This document shows, piece after piece, positions 20,546 to 57,254 of a stretch of DNA of 64,000 nt. The stretch spans positions 23,843 to 87,842 of the IMG/VR virus record IMGVR_UViG_3300027917_000033. One strand, given 5' to 3'. Positions within the stretch are counted from its first letter, which is position 1, and each line of letters starts with the position of its first letter. Both the position numbers and the translations under genes were made by a program. The DNA is from a virus. A model generated the notes under the pieces. That model was not told the DNA's origin, ran no database searches, and saw only the letters and a program-made list of their open reading frames with translations.

Positions 20546-21034
20546 ATGAAACTAAAATCATTGTATGAATCTGAGTCTGATGAATCTCGCATAAAACGAC
20601 TTCGGGATTCTGTAACAATACCATCATCTAAAAATATTTATAATGACATGATCGGAGTGTCGGAAAGACTGGCGATAGTTGGGCAATATTTAAGTGATTG
20701 GGGCTTTCCAGTTGACCCAGTAAGTAAACCATCAACTGGTCATCCCCCATTCATACGGGTATGGAATAATGAACACAAAACCGGTGTCGTTGCAATATCT
20801 GTTAGAGCATTGGTATCGGGTTATAAAGTATTTGGGATTCCTACAATTGGCCCATCTGAAGTGTTTATAGAAAAACTTGGTAGCAATATGCGAAGAAAGT
20901 CAGCGAATCTGTGGGCCAAAAAAGTCGATTTGGCTAAACCTAATGCACTGCAAACAATAAAACAAATAGTCGAAGAAATGGTTTTTCTGCCAAACCAAAG
21001 ACGTGATCATTTAGTGGACCCAGATGAATCCTGA
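20546..21034 (+). CDS. probable internal head protein, DPxxF family, LYE leader
   Basis: 162 residues. The N-terminus MKLKSLYE-SESDES has an L-x-E site at residues 6-8, the shape of T4-type capsid-targeting sequences. The body matches the small paralogous family: hydrophobic strands, then LAKPNALQTIKQIVEEM, the D-P-x-x-F position reading K-P-N-A-L. First gene of the plus-strand cassette; it overlaps the next gene by 11 bases. Function unknown. Confidence 0.65.
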   Translation: MKLKSLYESESDESRIKRLRDSVTIPSSKNIYNDMIGVSERLAIVGQYLSDWGFPVDPVSKPSTGHPPFIRVWNNEHKTGVVAISVRALVSGYKVFGIPTIGPSEVFIEKLGSNMRRKSANLWAKKVDLAKPNALQTIKQIVEEMVFLPNQRRDHLVDPDES

Positions 21035-21548
21035 AGAAATAGCCAAGTTGATCACGGAAGATCCCGACGTCTTCGAAGACTGGGATGAAGCTGATATAGG
21101 ATTGGTGGAAACGATGAATCCAGAGGATATAGCCAAGTTGATCACGGAAGATCCGGACACTCCGGACATTCTGGATCTCGTAAGTCAAAAATTATTCGAA
21201 TTAGGCTATAGCCACGAGAACAGGTGGGGCGGATTATTGATTCGCCCTGAGCAGCTGAACATCGAAGGCGTAGAAGACTGCGAAGGGCTTTATATCGAAG
21301 ATAAAGGCCAAGCCAACATTAACATGATCATGATAGACAAGAACGCGCCTGAGGCTTTCGGTCCTGGAGACTTCACGCCATGGTGGTCGGGGACCTTCCT
21401 GAAGAACATCTGGCGTCGACCAACAGGTTACTTTGACTATTGGTATCCATTGAATTTGGCTGATCCCGAAGAATATGAAGAATTTGAAGAAATTCTTAAA
21501 TGGTCGATGGAAGATTGGAGAGGCTATTGGAGACTGGGTCAACTGTGA
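21024..21548 (+). CDS. probable internal head protein with tandem duplicated ITEDPD leader
   Basis: 174 residues. The leader occurs twice: MNPEEIAKLITEDPD at 1-15 and MNPEDIAKLITEDPD at 32-46, so either a duplicated targeting signal or an alternative start. The rest is a DPxxF-family domain ending LADPEEYEEFEEILKWS. If the prohead protease cuts after L-I-T-E, both leader copies would be removed. Ends in a GTGA overlap with the next gene. Confidence 0.75.
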   Translation: MNPEEIAKLITEDPDVFEDWDEADIGLVETMNPEDIAKLITEDPDTPDILDLVSQKLFELGYSHENRWGGLLIRPEQLNIEGVEDCEGLYIEDKGQANINMIMIDKNAPEAFGPGDFTPWWSGTFLKNIWRRPTGYFDYWYPLNLADPEEYEEFEEILKWSMEDWRGYWRLGQL

Positions 21549-22387
21549 ACCCTAAAGATATAGCCCGGATGATTACTGAAGACCCGGATATGACGGAAGA
21601 TATAGACGACCTGACAATATTGGGGTGGTTCAAAGAATATCTTGAAAATAGCCCGATTATTGCGAAGGCTTTTGAACACGGTCGCTTTGGCAAGTTCATC
21701 AGGTACGATTTTGAAAACTTTGGGCCTGTCCAGAGCAAACCGTGGGTGCGTCTCAATATAACGACATCTGCACACAGTGGCGCTGTAATTGTACACAATG
21801 GCAAACTTGAATTATTTAATTATTTCATGCCAAAAACGCGCATCGTAGACTTGGCTGATCCGAACGCATTTGAACGTGCTACAGAGATTATAGTAGAGCT
21901 ATTGTTCGCTGGTCCTGCTCGTCGGGCTTTCCAGACAGAGGAAATGAATCGCCCTGACCCAGAAAATACAATCAGGTTGGTCGAAGAAGACCCGAACGCT
22001 AAGTCTATAGAAGAAATAGCGAGTGAGGTGCGTTTAAAGGCAAGCCAACTAGGGATTGATCTTCCACCGACATCGGTCATGTGGACAGATAAAGACACTA
22101 GTCATTATGATTTTAAAGATATCTATATAAGCCAAAGGGATGCTGATGATGCATTTGCGATTGTGGCGCACGAATATGGACACGTTTTGTATGATATGCT
22201 GTCAAAAGAACAGCAAGACATGTGGTTTGAGTTGGTGAATAAAGAAGTCTTCAATGGCAAATTATATCCTGCCCATGGTGACGAAGTTTTTGCTAGAAGT
22301 TTCCAACACGTGATCGCAAATGAGTCAGAACCAGCTTATGAAGCTGCTAGAGATGCATTTTTTAAAATAATGTCATATGAATCCTAA
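21545..22387 (+). CDS. probable internal head protein: DPxxF domain fused to zinc metallopeptidase
   Basis: 280 residues from GTG 21545 (the GTGA overlap with the upstream stop decides the start). Leader NPKDIARMITEDPDM at 2-16; DPxxF domain to about 125 (VDLADPNAFERATEIIVE); then a second leader-like stretch NTIRLVEEDPN (141-151); then a zincin with HEYGH (209-213) and a candidate third ligand in HGDEVFARSF (Glu247). The zincin family cleaves proteins with one zinc ion. An injected protease could act on a host factor or in the head. No signal peptide. Confidence 0.75.
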   Translation: MNPKDIARMITEDPDMTEDIDDLTILGWFKEYLENSPIIAKAFEHGRFGKFIRYDFENFGPVQSKPWVRLNITTSAHSGAVIVHNGKLELFNYFMPKTRIVDLADPNAFERATEIIVELLFAGPARRAFQTEEMNRPDPENTIRLVEEDPNAKSIEEIASEVRLKASQLGIDLPPTSVMWTDKDTSHYDFKDIYISQRDADDAFAIVAHEYGHVLYDMLSKEQQDMWFELVNKEVFNGKLYPAHGDEVFARSFQHVIANESEPAYEAARDAFFKIMSYES

Positions 22388-23111
22388 AGACATAGCTCGG
22401 CTGATCACTGAAGATCCTGATATCTTTAACGAAGACTGGGAAGAATTAGGCATCGAAGATCCATTTGCTATTGATGAAGACGAAATTAAAAAGAAATGGA
22501 CTGCGGCATTAATGGATGCGATGGGCCAAGAATGGGCGTCAATACTAAATGAGAATGATAAGGAGCAGATCCTTGCTGATCAAGATAAGTTCGTAGAGAT
22601 ATTAAAATATGCTAAGGAGGTGGCAGAGAAAAGATACCCGCAGTATACTGTAGACGAGTATTTGCGTAATGCCGCCATATCTGTGGTGGCTTTCCAGGTG
22701 AACATGAGAACGCCCAAGAAGGCTCCTCCAGAAACTCCGCCAGAGACGAAGTATACGGTTTTCCTCTCAGACCCAGAAATGATGCTGGAATTAACCACCA
22801 ACCCGCAAAACTGGAAGAATTACATAGCGATTATCAAAAGAGAGCTAGGAGACGGTCCTTATTATTGGCAGCAATTTGATTCTGATACTGGAATGTTATA
22901 CAATGGACTTTATGCTTACCCAGTGCCAGACGAGCACGTGCTGGAATATTATGACGTATGGTGGATGTATGTAAATATTATCGAAAAAATAACAGACCCT
23001 GAAGAGATTGCCAATACCATACCAGCAATGGGCGACTATAACCTAGGTGGCATCGTGGTATTCAAAAACATGAATGATTTGCTTACTAGGTGGGAGCCAC
23101 TTAGTTTATAA
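22377..23111 (+). CDS. probable internal head protein with ITEDPD leader
   Basis: 244 residues. Leader MNPKDIARLITEDPDIF, helical acidic domain (WTAALMDAMGQEW), a Pro/Glu hinge (KKAPPETPPETKY ~113-125) and a second alpha/beta domain. No known fold recognised. Start codon lies 11 bases inside the upstream gene. A true intrinsic terminator follows, so transcription from the cassette head ends or is reduced here. Confidence 0.7.
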   Translation: MNPKDIARLITEDPDIFNEDWEELGIEDPFAIDEDEIKKKWTAALMDAMGQEWASILNENDKEQILADQDKFVEILKYAKEVAEKRYPQYTVDEYLRNAAISVVAFQVNMRTPKKAPPETPPETKYTVFLSDPEMMLELTTNPQNWKNYIAIIKRELGDGPYYWQQFDSDTGMLYNGLYAYPVPDEHVLEYYDVWWMYVNIIEKITDPEEIANTIPAMGDYNLGGIVVFKNMNDLLTRWEPLSL

Positions 23112-23135
23112 AGGCCGGGTTATCTGGCCTTTTTA
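23111..23135 (+). terminator. intrinsic terminator
   Basis: AAAGGCC (23111-23117) pairs with GGCCTTT (23127-23133) around a 9-base loop and runs into five Ts on the plus strand. It divides the leader cassette into two transcription segments. Confidence 0.8.
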
Positions 23136-23144
23136 TGAGAGAAT

Positions 23145-23870
23145 ATGGAACCGATAGACATAGCTCGGCTGATTACGGAAGACCCGGATATTGCAGCCGA
23201 TTTCTTTCATGGATACAGATCGTATGGCGACAGAACCAATATGTTGAGGATTTTGGAAAATGGCATAGCCGTCCCAGATACTATGGAAACATATTGGAGT
23301 TGGGATCCTATTCTTTATTATTGGTATAACAAAGACGCAACGCCGGGATATAAGAAAGGGAGACTTGTTGGTAATATCGTAGAGGTAAGGTTCACAGAAA
23401 ATGATCCGAACGTGGGTGGTTTTGGGGATGGCCAGCCTCTATATGCGTATATGGTGGCTAGAGACAAAGAGTGGGTTGACAAACATCATATGGCTAAAGC
23501 GGAAAATCTACTAGACGAATTACCACCTGCAATGAAAAAATCATTCCTAGACCTGCAGCAGCAAATTACAGGAGATCCAAAATGGCGTGGTGATTGGATG
23601 TTTGCTGGCATTTTGCCTGACTACCACAAACAGGCAGCTGTTGATTGGTTTAGAGATGCAAGACGATACTTGTCGGCAGTTGGTACGGCATCTAGTCATG
23701 AATTTAATTATGTTGGCCCTATCATTTCGTTTGGTGACCCAAATAATACTTCAATAGTTGGTATTTACGAATTATACAAAGATACCGGAGAAATCTACAA
23801 GGCATATTATACTTGTGGATTGTCGAAAATCGGATCGGACCTTTTCGCGTCACACAGAAAAACAACATGA
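23145..23870 (+). CDS. probable internal head protein with ITEDPD leader; possibly ADP-ribosyltransferase-like
   Basis: 241 residues. Leader MEPIDIARLITEDPDI. It is followed at once by FFHGYRSYGDRTNMLRILENGI, an H-G ... I-L-x-x-G-I pattern seen at the start of ADP-ribosyltransferase and related folds; the T4 Alt enzyme, also injected, is of that class. The remaining motifs are not clear, so the enzyme call is a guess. Ends in an ATGA overlap with a one-helix membrane protein. Confidence 0.65.
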   Translation: MEPIDIARLITEDPDIAADFFHGYRSYGDRTNMLRILENGIAVPDTMETYWSWDPILYYWYNKDATPGYKKGRLVGNIVEVRFTENDPNVGGFGDGQPLYAYMVARDKEWVDKHHMAKAENLLDELPPAMKKSFLDLQQQITGDPKWRGDWMFAGILPDYHKQAAVDWFRDARRYLSAVGTASSHEFNYVGPIISFGDPNNTSIVGIYELYKDTGEIYKAYYTCGLSKIGSDLFASHRKTT

Positions 23871-23977
23871 AGAAGCCAATTGAAGTTAAGCCGCAGCCAA
23901 TTAGTTATGGCTGTGTAGGATTGGCTTTATTTGCACTGGCGGTTATCATCACAATTGTTATTGGGATTTATCTATGA
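23867..23977 (+). CDS. small single-helix membrane protein
   Basis: 36 residues: a basic, Pro-containing N-terminus (MKKPIEVKPQPISYG) and one hydrophobic helix (LALFALAVIITIVIGIYL). It is joined to both neighbours by ATGA overlaps (starts 23867, ends 23977), which supports it as a real gene. It lacks the leader, so it stands out in the cassette. Could be an inner-membrane partner of an injected protein. Confidence 0.6.
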   Translation: MKKPIEVKPQPISYGCVGLALFALAVIITIVIGIYL

Positions 23978-24405
23978 ATACAAAAGACATAGCCATGTTA
24001 ATCACTGAGGATCCAGATGTGGCCGAATCGCTAAGAATACTCATTTTAGATGATGATCCACATCCTGATGACCCAGACAACTTTTCAAAAGCTGGCCAAT
24101 TCAGAATTAAGGCATTCAAGAAGAAGTTTATCGGGCATGTTGTTAAATGGGTTAGAACCGCTGAACAGGCTATAGATGAACTAGCAAACAACGACTGGGA
24201 TGTGTTGTTCCTGGATCACGATCTTGGTGGCGAAATATATGTAGATTCTGGGCCTGGTACAGGTTACGAAGTGGCCGTGTGGCTTGAGAAAAACCCAGAC
24301 AGACAGCCACCGCAGATATTCTTACACAGCCTAAATTCTGTTGGTAGGCAAAATATGCAAGCGGCCTTACCAAATGCAACGCAAACGCCGTTCGCGTGGA
24401 AATAG
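23974..24405 (+). CDS. probable internal head protein: leader plus receiver-like (cREC) domain
   Basis: 143 residues. Leader MNTKDIAMLITEDPDV, then a receiver-like fold: LRILILDDDPHP, WDVLFLDHDLGG, GTGYEVAVWL and PQIFLHSLNSVGRQNM. The D-H-D-L-G-G block and the H-S-x-N strand match the cyclic-phosphate-processing receiver family, proposed to act on RNA ends; ordinary response regulators lack them. An injected RNA-end processing protein is the inference. Confidence 0.7.
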   Translation: MNTKDIAMLITEDPDVAESLRILILDDDPHPDDPDNFSKAGQFRIKAFKKKFIGHVVKWVRTAEQAIDELANNDWDVLFLDHDLGGEIYVDSGPGTGYEVAVWLEKNPDRQPPQIFLHSLNSVGRQNMQAALPNATQTPFAWK

Positions 24406-24442
24406 AGGCAAAGATAATTTATGAATACATTGTGTGCGAAAC

Positions 24443-24850
24443 ATGAATGATATTAAGAAAATAGCAGGCCTGATCACTGAAGATCCTGATGTGATACAGG
24501 AAACCGGTTTATCAGATTTGTATGAACAAGAAGCAGAATTATTAAAAGCATTATGGGGATACCTTGAGGAAGAAGGGATCCAAATGGAGGCCGGGTCTCA
24601 TCTAACTCGTGGTGTGCCAAAAGGTATGACCAGGCATCCTGAAACTGGGCCGCAATTGTGGAGAAGATCTCCAAATGGTAGGATTGATATCTGGAAAACA
24701 CCAGGGCGACTGGCAAAGAGTGACCACGATTACACTGCATCTTACGATGCCGGGTGGTCATCTAAAGGGCGTTTATATTTTAGATTCAATGTATGTGACC
24801 CGGAATCGTTCCCAAAGGTTAGGGATTTCATTTTAAAGCATACAACATGA
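24443..24850 (+). CDS. probable internal head protein, DPxxF family, ITEDPD leader
   Basis: 135 residues from ATG 24443. Leader KKIAGLITEDPDVIQET; body with charged strands and the C-terminal signature CDPESFPKVRDFILKH of the DPxxF family. The leader DNA is identical over 25 bases to that of the next gene (CACTGAAGATCCTGATGTGA and beyond), which points to recent copying. Ends in an ATGA overlap. Confidence 0.7.
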   Translation: MNDIKKIAGLITEDPDVIQETGLSDLYEQEAELLKALWGYLEEEGIQMEAGSHLTRGVPKGMTRHPETGPQLWRRSPNGRIDIWKTPGRLAKSDHDYTASYDAGWSSKGRLYFRFNVCDPESFPKVRDFILKHTT

Positions 24851-25206
24851 AACCAGAAGACATAGCGAAAAGAATCACTGAAGATCCTGATGTGATACAG
24901 GGAATGCCAGATTTGGTTGTGCCATACACCCTGTTTGACGATGATGATTATGAAGTTGCGGTGTCTGTCGGTGGCGATTTAGACGATACAATGCTCCAGG
25001 ACATACTGTTTGCCAAAGAAAAACGTACTGGCAGACTATTGGATGGTGACGAATTTGCCAGTTTGAACGCTGCTGAGGGCATAGATTATATAGGACAACT
25101 TGAAGATCGGATTAACGAATATTATGCAGATGCTGGGATGATAGACGACGTCGATGCTTATAAACGCACTAAGGAAGACGAATTACTTGGAAGACACGGA
25201 TATTGA
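24847..25206 (+). CDS. probable internal head protein with ITEDPD leader
   Basis: 119 residues. Leader MKPEDIAKRITEDPDVIQ, followed by an acidic protein (LFDDDDYEVAVSVGGDLDD). No DPxxF signature and no known domain recognised. Start overlaps the upstream stop (ATGA); end overlaps the next gene (TTGA). Confidence 0.7.
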   Translation: MKPEDIAKRITEDPDVIQGMPDLVVPYTLFDDDDYEVAVSVGGDLDDTMLQDILFAKEKRTGRLLDGDEFASLNAAEGIDYIGQLEDRINEYYADAGMIDDVDAYKRTKEDELLGRHGY

Positions 25207-25583
25207 AATTGCCGGTGTTATATGAAGAAATAGACAAGGCTAGTTATGATGTAGCAGAACTGCTCGTAAAATTTTTGCAAGATGTTAAACTTCCTGGCAA
25301 CCCTGAAATAGACAGCCACTCTCCCCCGTGGCGGGCTGGCCGATCGAGTGCTGCTGCTGTAATTACAGTTAGAGCACGTATTGCATGGCGTTTTCAATTT
25401 CAAGCACTTGCTAGAATAATTGTGTATGATGATGGAACGATTGACCTGGCAACTGGATTGTGTAAAAAGGGCGATATGGTACCAAGGATTGGCGCGAGTC
25501 ATTGGCAATATAATTATTATGACCCAAAATCATTTGGGAACATAGAGAGACGTCTTAAAGAGTTGTTCGGTAAATATTTTTAA
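25203..25583 (+). CDS. probable internal head protein, DPxxF family, LYE leader
   Basis: 126 residues, probable TTG start at 25203 overlapping the previous stop. N-terminus KLPVLYEEID has an L-Y-E site at the same place as the first gene of the cassette. Body with beta strands rich in Arg and the end YYDPKSFGNIERRLKELF, a clear DPxxF signature. Last gene before the double hairpin. Confidence 0.65.
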   Translation: MKLPVLYEEIDKASYDVAELLVKFLQDVKLPGNPEIDSHSPPWRAGRSSAAAVITVRARIAWRFQFQALARIIVYDDGTIDLATGLCKKGDMVPRIGASHWQYNYYDPKSFGNIERRLKELFGKYF

Positions 25584-25590
25584 TATAGCA

Positions 25591-25648
25591 GGGGCGAAGC
25601 TCACGAAGCTTCGCCCCCTGGTGTTGATCTCCGACGATCAACACCTTT
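25591..25648 (+). terminator. two consecutive 10-bp hairpins
   Basis: 25591-25600 pairs with 25608-25617, and 25620-25629 pairs with 25636-25645, both without mismatch; TTT follows. The tandem arrangement right after the last cassette gene suggests a strong, possibly bidirectional terminator. Confidence 0.7.
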
Positions 25649-25673
25649 AGCACCCCGTTTTAATTTTGATGTT

Positions 25674-25886
25674 ATGATATTATGGGTACTGATGGATCCG
25701 AAGAATATGTCTCCGGTACTTCCGGGCTCAACTTGGATATATCGCGGTCTGATGATCTTTGTTGTCGAAAGTTATGCAATAGATGACGAATGGATCATTA
25801 CTGCGGTAACTAGGGATGGAGATTCGATGGTTATTTCTACAAATATAGAGAAATGGCTTGAAGATGCCGATTATCTGGAGACATAA
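25674..25886 (+). CDS. hypothetical small protein
   Basis: 70 residues (64 if the ATG at 25692 is used). Beta-rich SH3-like pattern: PGSTWIYRGLMIFVVESYAI ... DEWIITAVTRDGDSMV. Ends one base before the ferritin-like gene, so it is likely co-transcribed with it. Not recognised. Confidence 0.5.
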   Translation: MILWVLMDPKNMSPVLPGSTWIYRGLMIFVVESYAIDDEWIITAVTRDGDSMVISTNIEKWLEDADYLET

Positions 25887-25887
25887 G

Positions 25888-26241
25888 ATGGTTGACTTTG
25901 TGCATCCGTTCCCAGGCAAGAAACCAGGTGACAAAATCACGAAGCAAGAGCTGATTAGTGCTCTTCGCCTGTCACTATGTGCTGAAGAAGAAGCAACTCA
26001 TCTTTACGACACAATAGCCGAATATACAGATGACGAAAGAGTCAAAAAAGTCATGAAGGATGTGGCCAATGAAGAACAGGTACACGTTGGCGAATTCCAA
26101 AAATTATTAGATCTCATGGAAGATGACGAAGAGGAGAAAGTAGGGGAGGGTAAGAAAGAAGCCGAAGAGAAAATAGAATCTATACAGAAACAGATAGCAG
26201 ATTTTATCACAGAGGACCCGGATTGGTCCGTTAGTAAATAA
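25888..26241 (+). CDS. ferritin/rubrerythrin-like protein with C-terminal ITEDPD tag
   Basis: 117 residues. Two helices carry ferritin-type Glu/His pairs (AEEEATHLYD ~32-41, NEEQVHVGEFQKL ~61-73). Small ferritin-like proteins are common in phages. After an acidic coil comes IADFITEDPDWSVSK: the cassette tag, at 107-112, at the C-terminus instead of the N-terminus. This is the only member so arranged. It suggests that the tag can act as a docking signal at either end, much as C-terminal cargo peptides direct ferritin-like proteins into encapsulins, which share the phage capsid fold. Confidence 0.7.
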   Translation: MVDFVHPFPGKKPGDKITKQELISALRLSLCAEEEATHLYDTIAEYTDDERVKKVMKDVANEEQVHVGEFQKLLDLMEDDEEEKVGEGKKEAEEKIESIQKQIADFITEDPDWSVSK

Positions 26242-56737: not shown

Positions 56738-56769
56738 CGGGCAATGTATACCAATTCCATCACTCGGGC
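56738..56769 (-). pseudogene. tRNA-Leu 5' half remnant
   Basis: The minus strand repeats the acceptor and D-arm of tRNA-Leu (GCCCGAGTGATGGAATTGGT) and then breaks off. The stop codon of 56760-57254 is inside it. Points to repeated insertion or deletion of tRNA genes at this spot. Confidence 0.5.
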
Positions 56770-57254
56770 GGTTTCGTACCAATCATGCCGTCCTTTGGAT
56801 TAATCGACTTAGTAGCCTTGTAATTCAAGAAGAAGGTTTGGCTGCACACTGGCTCATACGGGTTGGCTAACGATACTGGTTTGTCAGTAATATAGGCATT
56901 TTCTGGGCTTACTGTGTATTTCTTAAAAATCTTTCGATCTGTACAAATTATTGGTTTGTGGTTGGCATCATAAATGGCATATCCATTGCCGTTGGTTATG
57001 CCAAAGTGCGGGATGTAATCTGGGCTGTAAAGATCTTTTTTGACACAAGTTTCCCACGTATCAAAGGCGGCACATTTAACCCAATATGTGCCGCCTTTAT
57101 ATAATGCCAATTTGCCCATTGGTTGTACGCTAATTAGGCCTGACGCAATGGTGCTTGGATACACTTTTCTAATGGTAGGCATTGTGAATTTAGTGAAATC
57201 GATATCTTTAATTTTTTCTTGCGCCTTTGGGTTGAATTTGTATTCAGTCGTCAT
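56760..57254 (-). CDS. hypothetical protein
   Basis: 164 residues. Aromatic- and Pro-rich beta protein (LALYKGGTYWVKCAAFDTW). Its final P-P-E and stop codon come from a tRNA-Leu remnant. Overlaps the dehydrogenase end by 11 bases. Not recognised. Confidence 0.5.
   Translation of the reverse strand: MTTEYKFNPKAQEKIKDIDFTKFTMPTIRKVYPSTIASGLISVQPMGKLALYKGGTYWVKCAAFDTWETCVKKDLYSPDYIPHFGITNGNGYAIYDANHKPIICTDRKIFKKYTVSPENAYITDKPVSLANPYEPVCSQTFFLNYKATKSINPKDGMIGTKPPE

Follow-up and report, generated by a model that had tools for sequence, protein, structure and literature searches.

In phage T4 the gp21 protease cuts after L/I-x-E, internal proteins enter the head by means of a capsid-targeting sequence (CTS) of about 10 residues, and one of them, Alt, is processed at both ends (PMC9026906); the way in which internal proteins come to be placed in the core of T4-like phages has been called still mysterious (PMC9958956). 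The propeptides of the giant phages SPN3US and phiKZ are mostly longer than 100 residues, with no short scaffold-shared motif described (PMC5694885). Encapsulin systems put the same peptide at the C-termini of their ferritins and at the N-termini of their ferredoxins (PMC8346489). Here we describe a gene for a ferritin-like protein in a 64,000-nucleotide stretch (the window) of the 87,842-bp virus record IMGVR_UViG_3300027917_000033, whose product carries near its C-terminus the hexapeptide ITEDPD that also heads neighboring open reading frames (ORFs). The tag, and the leader it resembles, is very probably a capsid-targeting signal, because it heads diverse ORFs of T4-like phages, adjoins gp21-gp22-gp23 in one locus (L069), has the I-x-E motif, and matches the C-terminus of the scaffold. 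We further consider it likely that this peptide, by mimicking the scaffold tail, loads an encapsulin-type ferritin into a T4-like prohead.

The ferritin and its exchanged tag

The ferritin-like ORF (ATG at 25888, stop at 26241, plus strand) is directly preceded by a GGAG-like sequence and encodes 117 residues ending in KQIADFITEDPDWSVSK. Its product matched Pfam Rubrerythrin above the family cut-off (E = 2e-7), the EncB encapsulin-cargo family of NCBIfam (EncB_fam, E = 5e-23) with 81 bits, which falls below the curated cut-off of 90 bits, and TIGR04535, the encapsulin-associated ferritin-like protein (E = 2e-15). The top PDB relatives by sequence were the Pyrococcus encapsulated ferritin 5n5e (the best, E = 2e-15) and M. 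xanthus EncC. An AlphaFold model made with 31 homologues as input (pLDDT 91) has helices at residues 19-46, 50-77, and 81-109, and Foldseek returned for it 5n5e first, followed by EncC, EncB, and Rhodospirillum EncFtn. E33, E35, Y40, E62, E63, and H66 are invariant across the 31 aligned homologues, and we take them to include the ferroxidase ligands known from EncFtn generally. Alignment and model agree on a half-ferritin, with a helical hairpin and intact metal-ligand positions. Judged by homology and predicted fold, the phage protein is a member of the encapsulin-cargo half-ferritins, not a generic ferritin.

The 87.8-kb record contains nine copies of ITEDPD, all on the plus strand and within window positions 21051-26223; neither the other strand nor the reversed pattern, used as a control, gave a single match. 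Eight copies are N-terminal (MNPEDIAKLITEDPD), spread over seven ORFs, one of which has a tandem pair, and take the form M-N-P-K/E-D-I-A-K/R-L/M-ITEDPD within the first residues. The ninth lies about 100 residues from the start, at the C-terminus of the ferritin, and is followed by WSVSK and the stop codon. The similarity between tag and leader exceeds the hexapeptide, since IADFITEDPD in the ferritin matches IA(K/R)(L/M)ITEDPD in the leaders. The original prediction, made from this DNA alone, had rightly called the protein ferritin-like, a description now sharpened to the encapsulin-cargo family, and had rightly taken its tag to be common to other leader proteins; it placed FITEDPD exactly, at residues 106-112, and erred only in letting it end the protein.

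Cellular relatives were sought in 84,980 species genomes, which yielded 80 loci, with the gene readable in 77; the nearest relatives are about 52% identical to the phage ferritin. A GSL-type C-terminal peptide (TVGSL, TIGSL, TVGNL) was present in 63 of the 77 homologues, and an encapsulin gene lay within 5 kb of all 63 GSL-tagged loci versus none of the 14 untagged ones. In the tree, this ferritin and the only other phage ferritin found (G002, below) grouped with the tagged, encapsulin-linked loci L095 and L097 (support, 96/91), in both of which the adjoining encapsulin was confirmed by Pfam; the grouping is only indicative because columns are few and branches long. The C-terminus of the phage ferritin, IADFITEDPDWSVSK, is not GSL-type, and the extension carries the phage motif instead. 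As read from the sequences, then, the GSL-type address of the cellular homologues has been replaced by the phage's leader motif. The parallel with encapsulins drawn in the original prediction proved closer than claimed, the phage protein being itself of the cargo family and cellular GSL tags occurring only with an encapsulin gene near. A phage-encoded encapsulin was considered and rejected, as none was found in ten phage records, including the window's record and the 320-kb G002; PF04454 gave no match in G000 or G002, both of which may be fragments.

The leader, the scaffold tail, and T4-type head genes

About 20 further IMG/VR contigs also have the leader, and those with head genes carry a T4-type gp21 protease and gp23. 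An exact scan of IMG/VR for IAxxITEDPD gave 40 stretches, with the motif nearly always a few codons after the start; when the motif was loosened, 56 of the 59 distinct occurrences over all loci lay within 20 codons of the start codon, most commonly at position 5-8. The motif was near the C-terminus in two long proteins, namely, the ferritin and a 512-residue protein (L037), the latter with another copy at its N-terminus; a 30-residue ORF, mostly leader, makes a third occurrence with a short tail. This small ORF, MNPEEIARLITEDPDLNVDIRDNNWWVITV, with hardly any cargo, is conserved in L025, L039, L041, L045, and L055. Chance was rejected as the source of the motif matches, with reversed-pattern controls at zero; the match in L057 is probably a chance one. 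A 29-residue leader query found no match among cultured phages.

Among 29 leader records searched, the S77 (gp21) protease was found in 12, and Gp23 scored over the cut-off in 15, nearly all of them full-length gp23. L069 has a leader ORF of 93 residues just before its gp21-gp22-gp23 genes, in the place taken in T4 by core genes 67 and 68. Most leader proteins match no known function; the domains recognized on leader ORFs were cREC (3e-19), the P-loop kinase AAA_33 (2e-13), a C39-type peptidase (2e-15), and an ADP-ribosyltransferase (ART)-like PARP domain (6e-4), a variety that resembles, by analogy, a set of injected effectors. One leader protein (L051, 4210-4644, minus strand) has an LYHGTS motif and weak ART/PARP matches and recalls Alt, the packaged ADP-ribosyltransferase of T4. 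Several in-frame leader copies, tandem or spaced as if marking cargo modules, were seen in L042 (3875-5533, minus strand) and at window positions 21024-21548.

The protein encoded between gp21 and gp23, at the gp22 position, was taken as the scaffold. Its C-termini read DIASQVDEDLV, DIAEGMDEDLI, KIASEMPE, KIASEMTED, and similar; in 40 of the 43 distinct full tails, the last 16 residues contain IAxx(I/L/M/V) plus either glycine or an acidic residue, a pattern found in about 5 of 680 other ORFs once overlooked scaffolds were removed. Of the annotated phage records, the metagenomic huge phages LR756511 and LR756508 come nearest in gp23, and both have neither the leader nor the scaffold tail. The leader core IAxxhxE is thus the conserved C-terminus of this scaffold. 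The motif stands at the very end of the protein and is conserved there while the middle diverges, which fits a tail with a binding partner other than itself.

A profile built from the scaffold tails alone was run over all ORFs of the window's record (47,789 scored segments), and the eight leader copies ranked 1-7 and 11. Since the leaders share ancestry, these ranks count as one match and not eight; by the maxima of shuffled sequences a single profile score is not significant alone, and the joint ranking is. In the reciprocal comparison, a leader profile on scaffold tails, the ranking was partly inflated by segments running past the stop codon, so that the 24 IA-anchored tails in the top five are those that count.

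The leader also has a plausible cleavage site. In T4, cleavage at ITE is proven: mature IPI, as solved, starts directly after S-T-I-T-E, and Alt begins with MELITE. Given these precedents, IAKLITE/DPD has the appearance of a targeting helix joined to a gp21 site (slash). The CTS of T4 itself, MKTYQEFIAEA, is similar to the N-terminal end of its gp22, MLKEQLIAEA, which by analogy would be a parallel case of a leader copying an end of the scaffold.

Three IMG/VR scans for further phage ferritins found one more virus only, as two identical records (G002); no ferritin homologue was found in the phage collection and no paper on phage ferritin in capsids in the literature. The G002 ferritin ends in DIDKIADEI, and in its 20-kb locus this end ranked first of 10,425 segments with the scaffold-tail profile (16.8; next, 9.1); the G002 scaffold, which ends in PISAIADMVD, supplied one of the 43 tails in that profile. 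Set beside IADFITEDPD, this gives two phage ferritins with different tails, both scaffold-type. The G002 gene adjoins leader-type genes, and no ITEDPD leader was found in this virus. The original prediction had proposed a survey of phage ferritins for tags and had counted against itself any untagged homologue in a leader-bearing phage: the survey turned up no such case, finding the scaffold-like IADEI in G002 and the full ITEDPD in the window protein only.

Features of the window are collected in the table. At least nine ORFs (window 20546, 25203, and 28979, plus six left of the window) begin with a leader of a second class, MK(L/I)xx(L)(Y/H)E; as this class is also of L-x-E type, its ORFs are perhaps a second capsid-cargo set, and G002 has a similar class, MKLxSLYD. 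ORFs of about 155 to 165 residues with a Gp23 segment of about 45 residues (FTKF..P.I...P..I...L..VQPM) fused to unrelated sequence occur at window 56760-57254 (minus strand; a weak match, E = 0.003), L086 463-933, L087 357-848, and L088 381-845; such ORFs could encode mimics of the shell or offer another route into the capsid.

Table. Positions (window numbering) of the ferritin gene, its tag, and the surrounding leader ORFs.
Feature	Position	Strand	Basis
Encapsulin-cargo-type half-ferritin, 117 residues	25888..26241	+	EncB_fam, Pfam Rubrerythrin, and 5n5e matches (sequence and model); invariant residues
C-terminal tag IADFITEDPD, residues 103-112	26194..26223	+	I-T-E as gp21-type cleavage motif; scaffold-tail profile rank 39/47,789
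ORF with two leader copies (MNPEEIAKLITEDPD... MNPEDIAKLITEDPD)	21024..21548	+	Motif scan
Leader ORF, GTG start, MNPKDIARMITEDPD, HEYGH metallopeptidase-like motif	21545..22387	+	Peptidase_M78, weak, E = 0.02
Leader ORF MNPKDIARLITEDPD	22377..23111	+	Motif scan
Leader ORF MEPIDIARLITEDPD	23145..23870	+	Family search: none found
Leader ORF MNTKDIAMLITEDPD with cREC receiver domain	23974..24405	+	PF20274, E = 3e-19
Leader ORF MRNMNDIKKIAGLITEDPD	24434..24850	+	Motif scan
Leader ORF MKPEDIAKRITEDPD	24847..25206	+	Motif scan
Second-class leader ORF, MKLKSLYE (L-x-E)	20546..21034	+	Motif scan
Second-class leader ORF, MKLPVLYE	25203..25583	+	Motif scan

Proposed loading of the ferritin and its alternatives

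We propose that a large T4-like phage took up an encapsulin-type half-ferritin, a putative ferroxidase, and exchanged its encapsulin address, of the TVGSL type, for the phage's own capsid-targeting peptide. This peptide, (D/E)IAxx(I/M)TEDPD, would copy the conserved tail of the gp22-position scaffold (IAxxhxE/D), take the place of that tail during head assembly, most likely on the inner face of the gp23 shell, and, bound there, carry its cargo into the prohead. The gp21 protease would then probably cut at I-T-E, freeing the cargo from N-terminal leaders; in the ferritin the same cut would trim only eight residues and leave the helix on the protein. The packaged ferritin would oxidize and hold Fe(II), protecting the packaged DNA, or be injected with it.

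Several observations weigh against this proposal. The phage's own gp21, gp22, and gp23 genes are absent from the 87.8-kb record, and the identity of the scaffold in the relatives rests on position and shape, since no curated family matches it. The ferritin tag itself fits the scaffold-tail profile less well than the leaders do, ranking 39th. The sample of phage ferritins is small (n = 2), and that of G002 has only IADEI, without TEDPD. No exact leader was found in several large phage contigs with an IA-type scaffold tail.

The alternative that survives best, although we think it unlikely, keeps the tag as a capsid signal but has it join the core, through binding to scaffold, protease, or portal, with no mimicry, at the shell, of the scaffold tail. 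The internal proteins of T4 purify together with gp22, and published descriptions have the CTS direct proteins into the core (PMC9026906, PMC9958956); the likeness of that sequence to the gp22 N-terminus could, moreover, mean like-with-like assembly. Binding to a partner other than the scaffold is nevertheless better suited to a motif that is held at the scaffold's very end despite the divergent middle.

We regard as improbable the possibility that the C-terminal tag is an accident, in which a neighboring leader-coding stretch recombined onto a ferritin gene whose product acts in the infected cell. The end of the G002 ferritin, too, is an IA helix like that of the scaffold and gives the best such match in its locus, and its gene stands beside leader-type genes; the model renders the tag as a continuous helix up to residue 109; and the L037 protein has leader copies at both ends. 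All this speaks against an accident, for which one may cite the place of the ferritin gene at the end of the leader-gene cassette, the restriction of the full ITEDPD to one ferritin, and the existence of untagged cellular relatives. Least probable of all is an address elsewhere (e.g., the host membrane, a degradation system, or a replication compartment), which the scarcity of assigned functions among the leader proteins would allow and which is opposed by the leader/scaffold-tail match in both directions, the gp21-type site, the T4-type head genes alongside, and the ART-like, P-loop kinase, peptidase, and cREC domains that recall the injected Alt of T4.

Loading of the ferritin through a mimic of the scaffold tail is thus a strong and testable case built on sequence, not a demonstration. 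A wider view, that the head of a T4-like phage works as an encapsulin, with a re-addressed ferritin packaged in the virion and accompanying the DNA as an active ferroxidase, and that scaffold-tail mimicry is a general cargo code, is offered more tentatively. If true, it would place an iron-oxidizing enzyme inside the virion, with consequences for DNA protection and phage-carried iron, and the code, general in a large group of T4-like phages, would explain how internal proteins enter the prohead. With one short motif shared between dozens of cargo leaders and the C-terminus of the scaffold, the placement of internal proteins becomes a directly testable question. The ferritin amounts to a natural experiment in which a cargo moved from encapsulin to phage, between two HK97-fold shells, and its address label was exchanged.

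Comparison with known systems

The system resembles that of T4 IPI-III and Alt in that a short terminal peptide is common to otherwise unrelated proteins, in the gp21 L/I-x-E site (STITE/A in IPI and MELITE/L in Alt, as I-T-E in the phage tag), and in the gp21-gp22-gp23 head module found in the leader-phage relatives. It differs from T4 in the sequence of the peptide, which copies the scaffold C-terminus, whereas the T4 CTS resembles the gp22 N-terminus, in the far larger number of cargo genes in leader phages, and in the C-terminal position of the ferritin tag. The ejection proteins of the giant phages SPN3US and phiKZ are likewise head proteins whose propeptides are removed by a gp21-related protease. 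Closest to the ferritin itself are the family 1 encapsulin cargoes (EncFtn; EncB_fam; P. furiosus PFC_05175; M. xanthus EncB/EncC), homologous half-ferritins with the same conserved E/Y/E/H positions, a flexible or helical extension leading to a short peptide at the C-terminus, and an HK97-fold shell, which in the phage is the presumed container. Unlike them, the phage protein has no GSL-type peptide and the phage record no encapsulin gene: the peptide comes from its own leader set, and the presumed shell is the gp23 capsid.
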